Shown: piece by piece, positions 9,816 to 13,655 of the stretch
Layout of the letters: every line of letters starts with the position of its first letter
Position numbering within the stretch: the stretch's first letter is position 1
NCBI GenBank assembly: GCA_934646965.1
Contig: CAKUEZ010000055.1
Location: 1 to 13,655 of the forward strand
DNA length: 13,655 bases
From: an uncultured Collinsella sp.
GTDB lineage: Bacteria > Actinomycetota > Coriobacteriia > Coriobacteriales > Coriobacteriaceae
Reading direction: 5' to 3'
Notes under the pieces: model-generated
What the model saw: the letters and a program-made list of their open reading frames with translations, nothing else
Told to the model about the DNA's origin: nothing
Database searches by the model: none
Program-made: the position numbers and the translations under genes

Positions 9816-11000
9816 TTACAGATGGACATCGGGATCGAGCATTTGGGCACTCACGCGCATGGATGACGCCAGGTTTTGGAACGTCTCCAGACGCAGGCTG
9901 TCGATCAGCCCGGCATCTTCGGCCTCGCGAACGGCGCAACCGGGCTCGTGGGTATGCGTGCAATCGCCGAATCGGCACGCGCGCGACGCCTCGACAATCT
10001 CGGGGAAGGCGCGCGCCAAACCCCGCTCGTGGCCCACAAGCGGCAGGCTGCGCAAGCCCGGGGCATCGGCAATAACGCCGGCATCGCCCGGCAGCGCCAC
10101 CATCACGCGTGCGACGGTGGTATGGCGGCCTTGGTCGTCGCGCTCGCGCACGCCGCCGGTAGCCAGCGTGTCGTGGCCCAACAGCGCGTTGAGCAGCGTC
10201 GACTTGCCAGCGCCCGACTCGCCCAGGATCATGGCGCAGCTCCCTGCCGGCACGCAGGCGCGCGCCTCGTCCAGGCCGAGGCCCTCGGCAGAAGACGTCA
10301 CGATCACGCGTACGTCCGGACCCACCAGACGACGCACGCGATCCAGGTCGCGCGCAAGCTCGTCTGCCTCGCAGCGGTCGGCCTTGGTAAGCACCACCAC
10401 CGGCTCGGCATCGCAGTCGAGCGCCAGCACCAGCGAGCGCGCCACGCGGTCGAGCAGTACCTCGCCGGCGCCGAGTGCCTGCACGATGAGCACGCTATCC
10501 ACGTTGGAGCAGAGCACCTGGCGCTCGCCGCGAGCGCGGCCGCGCCAACGCTCAAAACTCGTGCGGCGCGGCAGAACGCACTCGATCACGCCCATGTCGT
10601 GCCCGGGCGCGCGACGAACCGCCACGCGGTCGCCCACGGCGGGCAGCAGGACTTCGTCCTCGCCACGTGACTTGGCAAACCCCACGGCGTGCTCGGCGCG
10701 GAACGTATCGTCGGCAGTCGCCACCAGCGGAAACCCTCGGTCCAGGCGCACCACGGCACCGAGCTGCATCTGCTCGGGCTCCTCGGCATGCGCGCAAAAG
10801 TCATCGAAGGCAGCATGCTGAGCCACATCGACCGGCAGGTCATCAAACGCCGGAACATCCTGCAGCGCATCGAGCCCCGGCACACTCGCCAGTAACTCCT
10901 CAGCAGATGCAGGGGCTTCGGTCGCGAGCTTCCGACGACGATCGCGCTTAGCCCGCGCCCCCGTCGTCTTTTTCTTCGCCTTAGCCTTAGCCTTGCCCAC
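9816..11000 (-). CDS. rsgA: RsgA, ribosome small-subunit-dependent GTPase
   Basis: 394 residues from GTG 11000, chosen for GGGAGG five bases upstream; upstream codons in this frame read back through the terminator and look non-coding. RsgA is a circularly permuted GTPase that acts in late 30S subunit maturation. Motif order confirms permutation: G4 TKAD (205-208), G5 SSAEG (236-240), G1 GESGAGKST (260-268), a G2-region RHTT (292-295), then G3 DAPG (312-315, Ala where Thr is commoner). The C-terminal zinc knuckle is C342-x4-C347-x-H349-x5-C355, complete. An OB-fold precedes the GTPase (about 78-165). The first 75 residues are unusual: a Lys/Ala/Arg-rich start and then an acidic segment, longer than in Bacillus-type RsgA (about 300 residues in total). 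It appears to be monocistronic, with terminators on both sides. Confidence 0.95.
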   Translation of the reverse strand: MGKAKAKAKKKTTGARAKRDRRRKLATEAPASAEELLASVPGLDALQDVPAFDDLPVDVAQHAAFDDFCAHAEEPEQMQLGAVVRLDRGFPLVATADDTFRAEHAVGFAKSRGEDEVLLPAVGDRVAVRRAPGHDMGVIECVLPRRTSFERWRGRARGERQVLCSNVDSVLIVQALGAGEVLLDRVARSLVLALDCDAEPVVVLTKADRCEADELARDLDRVRRLVGPDVRVIVTSSAEGLGLDEARACVPAGSCAMILGESGAGKSTLLNALLGHDTLATGGVRERDDQGRHTTVARVMVALPGDAGVIADAPGLRSLPLVGHERGLARAFPEIVEASRACRFGDCTHTHEPGCAVREAEDAGLIDSLRLETFQNLASSMRVSAQMLDPDVHL

Positions 11001-11005
11001 AAACG

Positions 11006-11011
11006 CCTCCC
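11006..11011 (-). promoter_or_regulatory. Ribosome binding site of rsgA
   Basis: GGGAGG on the minus strand, five bases before the GTG at 11000. It is the evidence for setting the rsgA start here and not at any codon further upstream in the same open frame. Confidence 0.75.
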
Positions 11012-11038
11012 AGCAAACAACCACACAACTGAGCAGGT

Positions 11039-11066
11039 ATTTTACCCACAAAAAAGAGTCGGTCGA
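11039..11066 (-). promoter_or_regulatory. Possible rsgA promoter
   Basis: A -10-like TAAAAT (11044-11039) is preceded at 16 bp by TCGACC, a four-of-six match to -35, which lies inside the terminator hairpin of the upstream unit. Transcription would begin about 30 bases before the rsgA start. The -10 is reasonable; the -35 is weak. This is offered because rsgA follows a strong terminator and needs a promoter within about 50 bp. Confidence 0.3.
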
Positions 11067-11085
11067 GCAAATGCTCGACCGACTC
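11050..11085 (-). terminator. Strong Rho-independent terminator (end of repeat unit A)
   Basis: Minus-strand stem of 14 perfect base pairs, GAGTCGGTCGAGCA paired with TGCTCGACCGACTC, with only TT between the arms (in practice about 13 pairs and a four-base loop). Six T (11055-11050) follow. It is the only hairpin with a full U-tract after the ATPase gene, 300 bp past its stop, and it forms the 3' end of repeat unit A. Confidence 0.88.
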
Positions 11086-11160
11086 ACACACTTTCCCTCA
11101 GCCTTTTTCATCCGCGCGAGAGAAACCAGCAACGTTACCGCAGGGCCCGCCTGCCGGGAG
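11056..11160 (-). repeat. Tandem 105-bp unit A, hairpin-ended
   Basis: First of two 105-bp tandem units. In the minus direction it starts with CTCCCGG and GCGGGCCCT, continues through a conserved core that includes TTGCTGG and GCGGATGAAAAAGGCTGAGG, and ends in the terminator hairpin at 11085-11056. Unit B has the same order of blocks, with only small differences and one- or two-base indels. No conserved peptide is encoded across the two copies. A duplicated small RNA or a repeat-family terminator module are both possible; nothing here proves transcription from within the unit. Confidence 0.7.
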
Positions 11161-11189
11161 GGGTTTCCAAAGGGCACATCCTTTTATTC

Positions 11190-11224
11190 AAAATGAGCTT
11201 GCCAAGCAATTGCTCGGCAAGCTC
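11190..11224 (-). terminator. Weaker hairpin of repeat unit B
   Basis: Minus-strand stem GAGCTTGCCGAGCA with TGCTTGGCAAGCTC, 14 pairs including one G-U wobble, followed by ATTTTG. The T-run is short, so termination may be partial. It is the counterpart of the unit A terminator with different stem bases but preserved pairing. Confidence 0.6.
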
Positions 11225-11299
11225 ACTTTATTTCCTCAGCCTTTTTTCATCCGCACGGGAGAAAAGCCAGCAAGGATACCGTAGGGCCCGCCCCGGGAG
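11195..11299 (-). repeat. Tandem 105-bp unit B, hairpin-ended
   Basis: Second copy of the 105-bp unit, nearest the ATPase gene and separated from unit A by 34 bp. The core GCGGATGAAAAAAGGCTGAGG and the GCGGGCCCT and TTGCTGG blocks are shared with unit A. Its outer end (GGGCCCGCCCCGGGAG in plus orientation) doubles as the left arm of the inverted repeat at 11285-11371. In the minus direction an ATPase transcript would read through unit B and then unit A. Confidence 0.7.
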
Positions 11300-11371
11300 T
11301 GTTTTCTTCTGAGCGATCCCGCAGCGCGAAGCGCGAGGACCAGCGAAGAAGAAAACACGCAGGGGCGGGCC
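11285..11371. repeat. Long imperfect inverted repeat after the ATPase stop
   Basis: Left arm 11285-11310 and right arm 11347-11371 pair over 10 bp (GGCCCGCCCC with GGGGCGGGCC) and then 12 bp (GTGTTTTCTTCT with AGAAGAAAACAC), with a small 3-4 base internal mismatch. The 36-base loop has its own short GC stem (GCGC-GAA-GCGC). It begins 13 bp past the ATPase stop codon. It lacks a U-tract on either strand, so it is not a standard terminator; it could protect the 3' end of the ATPase mRNA or be a mobile repeat of the REP/MITE sort. Confidence 0.7.
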
Positions 11372-11384
11372 TGGACAGGTTAAC

Positions 11385-13655
11385 TTACTCCTTTTCGACC
11401 GCGCGCATGATCGCCTTGTAGATCTCCATCAGCGGAATGATCAGGAAGGCCAGGCCCAGCGCGGCGATAACGCCCTTAAGCTCAAGCGTCACGGGACCAA
11501 AGAACATCTCGGCAAGCGTCGGCTGCACGGTCACGATCACCGTCAGCACCAGCGCCAGCGCGGCCGAAGCCCACAGCCATTTGTTCTGCTTCTTCATGGT
11601 GAACAGCGACGCGCGGCGGCTGCGCATGTTGAAGCAGTGGAAGATCTCGACCATGTTGAGCGTGATGAAGGCCATCATCACGCCTTCCTCGTCGGCGTTG
11701 CCGGCGATCATATCGGAGATGTGGATGTAGCCCATGTCAAAGTACACGCCCACAAAGAAGCTCGCCAGCACCAGCACGGTGATGATCAGGCCCTGGACCA
11801 CGCAGTCAAGACCCATATGTCCGGCAAAGACGCCGTCCTTGGCGTTGCGCGGCTTGCGCTTCATGATGTCGCCCTCGGCGTCCTCCATGCCCAGTGCGAG
11901 CGCGGGGAAGCAGTCAGTGACCAGGTTCACCCACAGCAGCTGCACCGGCTGGAAGATAGTAAAGCCGATGAGCGTGGCGATGAACACCGAGAAGACCTCG
12001 GCAAGGTTAGCCGAAAGCAGGAACTGGATGACCTTACGGATGTTGTCGTAGATGCGACGGCCCTCTTCGCAGGCACCGATGATGGTGGCGAAGTTGTCGT
12101 CGGCGAGCACCATGTCGGCGACGTTCTTGGTGACGTCGGTGCCGGTGATGCCCATGCCCACGCCGATGTCGGCGCGCTTGATGGACGGCGCGTCATTGAC
12201 GCCGTCGCCCGTCATGGCCACGATCTGGTCACGCGACTTCCAGGCCTCGACGATACGCGTTTTGTGCTCGGGCTGGACGCGGGCGTACACGCCGTAGTCC
12301 TCGATGTGTGCGTCGAGTTCCTCGTCACTCATGCGGTCGAGGTCGGCGCCGGTGATGGCCTGGCTGCGGTCGGTGACGATACCCAGCTGCTTGGCGATGG
12401 CCACGGCGGTATCGATGTGGTCGCCCGTGATCATGACGGTGCGGATACCGGCGTCGTGCGCCTCGCGGATAGCGTCGGCCACCTCGGGGCGGACCGGGTC
12501 GATCATGCCGGACAGGCCACAGAAGACCAGGTCATGCTCGAGCGCGGCGGGGCTGCAGTCGGCCGGGACCTCGGTGTAGGTGCGGCTCGCCAGCGCCAGC
12601 ACGCGCAGGGCCTCGTCGGCCATGGCCTTGTTGGCGGCCACGAGCTCGGCACGACGCTCCTCGGTCAGTGGAACGACCTTATCGCCCTCGTAGATATGGG
12701 TGCACAGGCCGATAACCACGTCGGGCGCACCCTTGGTGTACTGCTCGTACTCGCCGTCCAGGGTCTCGACGACCACGGACATCATCTTGCGGCCGGAGTC
12801 GAACGGTGCCTCACCCACGCGCGGGTGCTCGGCGGCCAGGCCGGTCAGGCCCGCCTTGCCGGCGTCGTTGACGAGCGCACACTCGGTCGGCTCGCCCACG
12901 GCCTCGCCCAGCTCCTCGTCCCACTGGGCATCGGAGCACAGCGCCATACCGGCCAGGAACTTCTCCTTAGGCGCGGCAAGCTCGTGCTTGACGACGGTCA
13001 TCTTGTTCTGCGTGAGGGTACCGGTCTTGTCGGAGCAGATGGTCTGCGTGCAGCCGAGGGTCTCGACAGCAGAAAGCTTGCGGATGATTGCCTGGCGCTT
13101 GGCCATCTTGGTCACGCCCAGCGAAAGCACGATGGTCACGACGGCGACCAGGCCCTCGGGGATGGCGGCGACGGCGAGCGAGACGGCGACCATAAAGGTG
13201 TCGAGCAGCGCAGTCGGGTCGGTGAGGACGTTGCCCACGCCGTGACGCAGGATGTCGACGCCAAAGATCACGACGCAGATGACAATCACCATGATGGTGA
13301 GGATGCGGCTGAGCTCGGCAAGCTTAACCTGCAGCGGGGTGAGTTCTTCCTTGGCCTCGGCCAGAGCGCCGGCGATCTTGCCCATCTCGGTGTTCATACC
13401 GGTGCCGACCACGACGGCGCGGCCGCGGCCGTACACCACGGTGGAGCCCATGTAGCACATGTTCTTGCGGTCGCCGAGCGGCACGTCGTCGGTGCCCGCG
13501 GCAAGCTCGATCACGTTGGCATGCTTCTCGACGGGGACGGACTCGCCGGTCAGGGCAGCCTCCTCGATCTTCATCGTGGCGCTCTCGAGCACGCGGCAGT
13601 CGGCCGGGACGGAGTCGCCCGCCTCGAGCATGATCACGTCGCCGGGCACGAGCTC
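11385..13655 (-). CDS. Calcium-transporting P-type ATPase (P2A), N-terminus beyond window
   Basis: 756 residues are visible; the start is off the right edge, with perhaps 130 residues missing compared with the usual 880-900. The fragment opens in the actuator domain (ELVPGDVIMLEAGDSVPAD) with TGES at 36-39. It continues with M4 VAAIPEGL (160s), the phosphorylation motif CSDKTGTLTQNKM with Asp209, the nucleotide-binding KGAPD (308-312), the hinge MITGD and GDGVNDAP (483-490). M5 has SANLAEVF and M6 has NLVTD, which together with the M4 Glu match calcium-binding residues of SERCA-type pumps. The C-terminal cation ATPase domain with four further helices is complete. It should export calcium from the cytoplasm using ATP. 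Manganese transport is a possible alternative within the family. The TAA at 11387-11385 is followed by the inverted repeat. Confidence 0.93.
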   Translation of the reverse strand, partial: ELVPGDVIMLEAGDSVPADCRVLESATMKIEEAALTGESVPVEKHANVIELAAGTDDVPLGDRKNMCYMGSTVVYGRGRAVVVGTGMNTEMGKIAGALAEAKEELTPLQVKLAELSRILTIMVIVICVVIFGVDILRHGVGNVLTDPTALLDTFMVAVSLAVAAIPEGLVAVVTIVLSLGVTKMAKRQAIIRKLSAVETLGCTQTICSDKTGTLTQNKMTVVKHELAAPKEKFLAGMALCSDAQWDEELGEAVGEPTECALVNDAGKAGLTGLAAEHPRVGEAPFDSGRKMMSVVVETLDGEYEQYTKGAPDVVIGLCTHIYEGDKVVPLTEERRAELVAANKAMADEALRVLALASRTYTEVPADCSPAALEHDLVFCGLSGMIDPVRPEVADAIREAHDAGIRTVMITGDHIDTAVAIAKQLGIVTDRSQAITGADLDRMSDEELDAHIEDYGVYARVQPEHKTRIVEAWKSRDQIVAMTGDGVNDAPSIKRADIGVGMGITGTDVTKNVADMVLADDNFATIIGACEEGRRIYDNIRKVIQFLLSANLAEVFSVFIATLIGFTIFQPVQLLWVNLVTDCFPALALGMEDAEGDIMKRKPRNAKDGVFAGHMGLDCVVQGLIITVLVLASFFVGVYFDMGYIHISDMIAGNADEEGVMMAFITLNMVEIFHCFNMRSRRASLFTMKKQNKWLWASAALALVLTVIVTVQPTLAEMFFGPVTLELKGVIAALGLAFLIIPLMEIYKAIMRAVEKE

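Follow-up and report, generated by a model that had tools for sequence, protein, structure and literature searches.

Catalogues of structured RNAs cover 5' UTRs far better than the regions behind genes. REP elements are known for a stabilising role and, in G+C-rich actinobacteria, 'I-shaped' terminators devoid of a U tract have been proposed. The REP and BIME stem-loops found in the 3' UTRs of E. coli have been described as probable decay intermediates (PMC4681348). Collinsella-1 (RF01700) was reported as a structured RNA of Actinobacteria and of the human gut (PMC2864571) and, among the HMP2 candidate RNAs predicted from human microbiome data, HMP2_254 is present in Collinsella upstream of L7/L12 (PMC8040213).

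The window, i.e. the whole stretch of 13,655 nucleotides analyzed here, belongs to a Collinsella aerofaciens-like genome and carries a member of a dispersed family of long 3'-UTR hairpins with a near-constant inner loop and drifting stems. Like the E. coli REP and BIME sequences as that report presents them, these are dispersed extragenic palindromes forming stem-loops in 3' UTRs; unlike them, the internal loop rather than the stems is mainly conserved, the orientation is nearly always the same and the spacing to the stop codon is fixed. A long stable hairpin without U tract just past the stop codon is a property shared with 'I-shaped' terminators, from which the element differs by its near-constant asymmetric internal loop and by the separate terminator-like site found downstream of 27 of 95 copies. 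Collinsella-1 shares with the element its structured nature and its occurrence in Actinobacteria and the human gut, but its sequence and sites are different. The HMP2 candidates are likewise structured RNAs from the human microbiome; HMP2_254 lies 5' of its gene whereas the element lies 3', a comparison that covers that named Collinsella candidate alone.

In the window, the interval of interest is bounded by a P-type ATPase gene and an rsgA-like gene, both on the minus strand. The C-terminus of the ATPase, LMEIYKAIMRAVEKE, is that of locus L150, which clusters with L247, and the last 300 amino acids of the L247 protein match TIGR01116 and other Ca-ATPase models; through this shared C-terminus and the clustering, the window ATPase is classed as calcium-type. 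From the ATPase gene to the rsgA-like gene, the following features were delimited:

11385..13655, minus strand: 3' part of the P-type (calcium-type) ATPase gene, from the list of open reading frames; extends past the window end, stop codon at 11385-11387
11285..11371, minus strand: copy 1, full long 3'-UTR hairpin, 13 nt past the ATPase stop codon
11316..11340, minus strand: internal-loop motif and apical hairpin, TCCTCG-CGCTTCGCG-CTGCGGGA, match to covariance model R1 (below)
11230..11284, minus strand: copy 1 tail (the 'core' of an earlier, sequence-only reading), stretch from hairpin to terminator, within the 37-nt 84% repeat, type A
11190..11229, minus strand: copy 1 terminator-like hairpin, inverted repeat I1, 90% complementary, weak U tract ATTTTG
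11143..11181, minus strand: copy 2, truncated, with the 3' half of the long hairpin only; begins within the CTGCGG/GATG motif, GGATGTGCCC at 11181
11086..11142, minus strand: copy 2 tail, from repeat comparison and alignment with L014 and L017
11056..11085, minus strand: copy 2 terminator hairpin, inverted repeat I3, 100% complementary, then TTTTTT (11055-11050)
11039..11044, minus strand: TAAAAT, -10-like box ahead of the next gene; TAAAATACCTGCTCAGTTG is present in each of L001-L020
9816..~11027, minus strand: rsgA-like gene (ribosome small-subunit GTPase), downstream gene, start codon position approximate

TAAAAT at 11039-11044 is a putative -10 box, and rsgA is presumably the proper name of the gene at 9816..11027; in the best segment, its product shares 95-98% identity with its counterparts in 20 Collinsella loci (L001-L020). 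Copy 1 folds with -58.3 kcal/mol (11278-11373), and the R1 match at 11316-11340 covers model positions 9-34 with 31.3 bits (E 1.5e-6).

The sequence-only reading had described two tandem units of equal length with covarying hairpins. Two similar minus-strand units do exist, 11299 to 11195 (unit 2) and 11160 to 11056 (unit 1), each 105 nt counted from one end of the range 11056-11299, and they have in common a 37-nt stretch (84% identity) and a 16-nt stretch (94%). They are not arranged head-to-tail, as a gap of 34 nt separates them, and the shared stretches begin 138 and 141 nt apart, which implies small indels. The likeness extends further on the 5' side of each unit: the full hairpin (11285-11371) precedes unit 2 and its 3' half (11181-11143) precedes unit 1, so that the locus consists of one full and one truncated copy, the units corresponding mainly to the tails and terminators of copies 1 and 2. 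In a by-eye comparison, the stem changes between 11056-11085 and 11190-11229 were found as described (T-A to C-G, C-G to T-A, G-C to T-A and T-A to C-G), together with one G-C to G-U change, and the folds of 11050-11160 and 11186-11300 were each better than 200 of 200 shuffles (z -4.7 each). The changes are thus real, but the stems that carry them are those of terminator-like hairpins, with TTTTTT after unit 1 and only ATTTTG after unit 2. Selection on pairing is better evidenced in the long hairpin than in these two terminator stems, whose G-U is one event.

Counting the window, 19 loci were aligned, and in 9 of them the core, held to be well conserved, is replaced by a different and shorter sequence (type B). 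As the tail differs in type among the aligned loci, it is not the conserved unit; the conserved unit is the long hairpin, which lies mostly outside the range 11056-11299 covered by the sequence-only reading. Many loci carry the hairpin, while of the core only short pieces are found elsewhere (best exact pieces 19 nt; 9 genomes; match list running down to chance level), which is largely the outcome that this reading had named as counting against it. A 16-mer of the core gave 4 matches in viral sequences, none with the motif on a motif scan, and these were taken as chance.

The constant internal loop has the sequence UCCUCG/CUGCGGRA (in DNA form TCCTCG ... CTGCGGGA) and is surrounded by stems that vary. 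We read it as a bulged U and a C-G pair, followed by a pyrimidine-C mismatch and finally a bulged purine. In 43 genomes of the genus, the motif pattern yielded 62 matches compared to 0 for the reversed control pattern; a looser pattern yielded 332 compared to 3, with evident chance coding matches among the 332. In 400 kb of genome G002, a permissive search returned two matches, one being the ATPase-site element and the other probably due to chance (1 match for the reversed control). Many copies are nested: the motif closes another long stem, which has an AU bulge and an apical loop of its own. Two elements, each with its own arms, were also observed side by side behind one gene (L153:2994-3184, L159:2994-3184 and L168:2995-3177), and two such elements face each other at L140:2993-3388.

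Model R1 was built on 25 elements (24 distinct; alignment A2) with a short apical loop, originating from different genes and species and picked by the motif pattern, not by their stems. As the training patterns fix GTCCTCG and CTGCGGRRTG, the loop owes part of its constancy to this selection; in these motif-chosen copies, 17 of 43 columns are invariant and all of them lie within the motif. Across the 25 elements, 94.1% of cells were paired, with 63 double-change cells and a covariation score of 0.463, whereas in controls slid by 1-3 columns 34.5-47.3% of cells were paired, with 3-20 double-change cells and a covariation score of at most 0.113. The 5' side of the motif in 50 copies fetched by the model was GTCCTCG in 45, GTTCTCG in 3, GCCCTCG in 1 and GGCCTCG in 1, and CTGCGAAATG, the change matching GTTCTCG, was present in 2 of the 50. 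At L227 the motif is altered on both sides, TTCTCG with CTGCGAAA replacing TCCTCG with CTGCGGAA. The 5'-side variants GGCCTCG and GCCCTCG occur in otherwise intact elements (L222:3001-3042 and L221:3001-3041), indicating that the conserved U is not strictly required.

R1 matches were detected in 39 of the 43 genus genomes (E 0.01), in 60 of 296 genomes of the class (E 0.001; 27 of them, several having just one weak match, outside the 43 genus genomes) and in 11 of 296 genomes of the phylum (E 1e-4; 9 already in the class result). Two genomes searched singly gave 9 and 22 matches (E 0.05). These genome counts are lower bounds, 21 or 150 candidates being scored per genome. A DNA similarity search with copy 1 gave no match in plasmid and phage records, and none of 18 pattern matches in viral contigs paired beyond the motif (0-6 of 12 positions).

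The position relative to genes was analyzed in 97 copies, namely 50 of 53 model matches (the three weakest, 19.4-26.2 bits, being excluded) and 47 pattern matches in L140-L179, by using a home-made gene caller that misplaces some genes, including an OppF-like one at L140. In 81 of the 97 copies, the gene called closest upstream was on the same strand, and this near-constant orientation points to a sense RNA. The stop codon of that gene precedes the model start by 27-59 nt in 75 of the 81 copies and by 117-173 nt in six, some of which are second tandem copies. Among the remaining 16 copies, 7 follow a same-strand open reading frame of at least 295 codons that ends 28-43 nt upstream, leaving 9 of 97 without a clear upstream sense gene by either analysis. 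The copies are not independent since many represent the same gene in related species; they fall into 54 rough gene clusters, with some noise.

NCBIfam searches were performed with 30 representative proteins, restricted to the last 300 amino acids or less, and several scores are therefore below curated cut-offs. By these searches, the genes bearing the element encode pyruvate:ferredoxin oxidoreductase, GroEL, PurL, two fructose-bisphosphate aldolases, homoserine kinase, Pta, an Xaa-Pro peptidase-like protein, GrcA, ribosomal proteins S10 and L24, alcohol dehydrogenases, a Ca-type ATPase, carbamate kinase, aspartate-semialdehyde dehydrogenase, IlvE, PEP carboxylase, LarD, rubrerythrin, an Hsp18-like protein, AccC, an Opp-type ATPase, a heavy-metal ATPase, FtsZ and a flavorubredoxin-like protein; at E 1e-15, four of the 30 remained without a match. 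The product of the gene at L146, L155, L166 and L168, for which the family search returned no family, is presumably a universal stress protein (Usp) judging from its C-terminus. Most of these genes belong to housekeeping and central metabolism, and we take their products to be abundant proteins.

The element persists behind the same genes while its arms change. In nine gene families with 2-6 loci each (a few nearly identical), including the Ca-ATPase with L247 and L150, mean arm identity between loci was 44-58%, and the complementarity score of each arm with its own partner was 0.75-0.86 compared to 0.42-0.61 for arms taken across loci. The ATPase of the window carries the element also in a distant genome (L247). 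In C. aerofaciens-like genomes, a near-identical long hairpin was observed behind different genes, at the Usp site (L048:1300-1530) and at the ATPase site (L008:4790-4892), which suggests that hairpins are exchanged between loci. A loose clustering of elements (30 clusters of 96) was not relied on.

Several observations bear on whether RNA or DNA is the selected form. In 21 long inner hairpins, 12 G-U were counted compared to 0 A-C, related copies being counted apart. The base facing the motif U was A in 39, G in 11 and C or T in none of the 50 model-fetched copies, six rows being registered by eye and R1 itself having been trained on purines at this position; a count of A 74 and G 22 among 96 was not relied on because most loci had been fetched with patterns demanding purines there. 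In the outer stems, G-U only slightly exceeded A-C (83 versus 52, p 0.0096 with copies treated as independent; 27 elements were richer in G-U and 13 in A-C), and the excess was weaker in another set (45 versus 30). The minus-strand reading drawn earlier from the two units is supported. As 89-93% of aligned stem positions are Watson-Crick and the G-U excess is small, upkeep of the palindrome at the DNA level, by template switching or exchange between loci, may add to selection on the RNA.

Described systems were compared with the element by sequence and by position. Rfam 15 gave no match at the gathering cut-off for the whole window or for 8 loci, 7 of which carry elements, in agreement with the earlier statement that no known family was recognised; over 10990-11400, 12 weak matches were all far below cut-offs (best 23.8 bits for a cut-off of 45). 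A search of the open-licence literature returned nothing naming the element. The Collinsella-1 model matched once in each of 2 of 6 genomes, and neither of the two loci concerned yielded an R1 match at E 1. For an intrinsic terminator, made of a hairpin and a U tract, a T-rich run 10-70 nt past the model end was found in only 12 of 95 copies; in the window, such a tract (TTTTTT) follows the separate terminator 11056-11085. For a REP/REPIN system with its RAYT, palindrome copies flanking a RAYT gene were not found in 20 neighbourhoods, 18 of them with RAYT-like open reading frames, and the stems are not conserved, arms behind the same gene being 44-58% identical on average.

Our reading, made with moderate confidence, is that one complete copy of a clade-specific structured 3'-UTR element and one lacking its 5' part are present in the window, and that the element acts on the 3' ends of sense mRNAs. 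The element would be co-transcribed with the gene upstream, and the mRNA would fold, within tens of nucleotides past the stop codon, into a long hairpin of stacked stems and internal loops. In the most economical reading, this hairpin would form and protect the 3' ends of abundant mRNAs by blocking 3'-5' exonucleases after trimming from a downstream end, the stabilising effect being proposed by analogy, and the constant loop would be a putative protein docking site. A tentative extension is a clade-specific post-transcriptional regulon, in which a putative Coriobacteriia RNA-binding protein docks on UCCUCG/CUGCGGRA and jointly sets the 3' ends and stability of mRNAs, while the stems may drift provided that pairing is kept; if so, as many as some twenty mRNAs of housekeeping and fermentation genes would be set together in each genome. 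The family combines strong covariation, a fixed distance to the stop codon and a coherent set of genes mostly for abundant proteins in a genus common in the human gut, and no Rfam 15 entry matches it; it makes the setting and protection of mRNA 3' ends in these G+C-rich bacteria directly testable.

The main rival holds that the hairpins are themselves terminators of the 'I-shaped' type without U tract, the internal loop being incidental or aiding RNA polymerase or Rho. Their position just past stop codons and their very stable stems are what such terminators would show, and a U-tract terminator-like site within 260 nt downstream was found for only 27 of 95 copies (7.9% for random positions in the same loci). 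However, in these 27 cases and at the window locus a separate terminator-like site does follow, and a near-constant internal loop between drifting stems is unexpected for a generic terminator. The number of matches, from none to about 20 per genome (lower bounds), is also far below the number of transcription units, and we regard this explanation as rather unlikely.

A mobile DNA palindrome of the REP or MITE kind, tolerated only where it inserts behind genes and propagated through gene conversion or by a transposase of the RAYT type, would account for a dispersed, palindromic and extragenic element and for the near-identical hairpin behind two genes (L048 and L008). Y1 transposases (PF01797) were present in 9 of 9 genomes searched, 8 of which also have longer, weaker-scoring open reading frames of 250-360 amino acids that we label RAYT-like by their length. 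Yet no R1 match was found in 20 neighbourhoods of 3.5-3.7 kb around 18 RAYT-like genes and 2 short fragments, and 2 of 7 RAYT-like regions inspected have clustered long palindromes of other sequence (L263:2422-2603 and L266:2383-2504); in the same search, an R1 match was found near one short IS200-like gene (L255). The near-constant orientation, the persistence of sites behind the same genes as arms turn over, the absence of copy 1 from the plasmid and phage records searched and the lack of pairing outside the motif in viral pattern matches all argue against mobility, which appears improbable. The sequence-only reading had proposed either a duplicated small RNA of about 100 nt or a repeated 3'-end module upstream of a terminator. 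The module stands; a small RNA released or transcribed at the window site and duplicated in this strain fits with a structured tail followed by a terminator and with two units that both fold well, but the tail is replaced in 9 of 19 aligned loci, its best exact pieces elsewhere are of 19 nt and Rfam has no match, so that the duplicated small RNA is not supported and is very improbable.

The origin of the second copy was considered in orthologous loci. The window locus was aligned in 19 loci including the window, leaving out L001 (other DNA between the genes) and L011 (contig end). The other 18 have a single long hairpin, compared to one and a half in the window. Ten of the 19 loci, window included, have the type A tail of the window and nine have type B; the long hairpin and the terminator are kept with both. 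L014 and L017 have two terminators each, and 11050-11186 is identical to them in 121 and 120 of 134 aligned columns, respectively. Among ten loci compared, the best-scoring partners were L005 and L019 for copy 1, and L014 and L017 for copy 2. As the two copies match different loci best, this site resembles two sibling alleles fused together, with an apparent joint inside the CTGCGG/GATG motif. Recombination between such alleles is the most likely origin of the second copy, which has lost the 5' half of the hairpin and retained the tail and terminator.

Pairing at this site was analyzed in a hairpin alignment of 19 rows (13 distinct) that includes L001 and leaves out L011 and L018, the latter missed by the pattern. 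In the outer stems, 95.8% of cells were paired and 4 pairs were changed on both sides, whereas slid controls had 44-67% of cells paired and at most 2 double-change pairs; one control had 7 double-change cells compared to 6 in the structure. The ATPase-site hairpin at L002:4812-4910 is chimera-like, with a 5' arm of the window type, a 3' arm of the other type and broken pairs in the middle stem. At L001:2518-5001, about 2.4 kb of other DNA lies between the ATPase 3' element and rsgA, with a small helix-turn-helix-like open reading frame, recognised by eye, near its end. In the window, the tail may form a small hairpin at 11244-11266 (minus strand), CUUUUCUCCCGUGCGGAUGAAAA, in which a UCC/GGA step and a bulge resemble a reduced motif.
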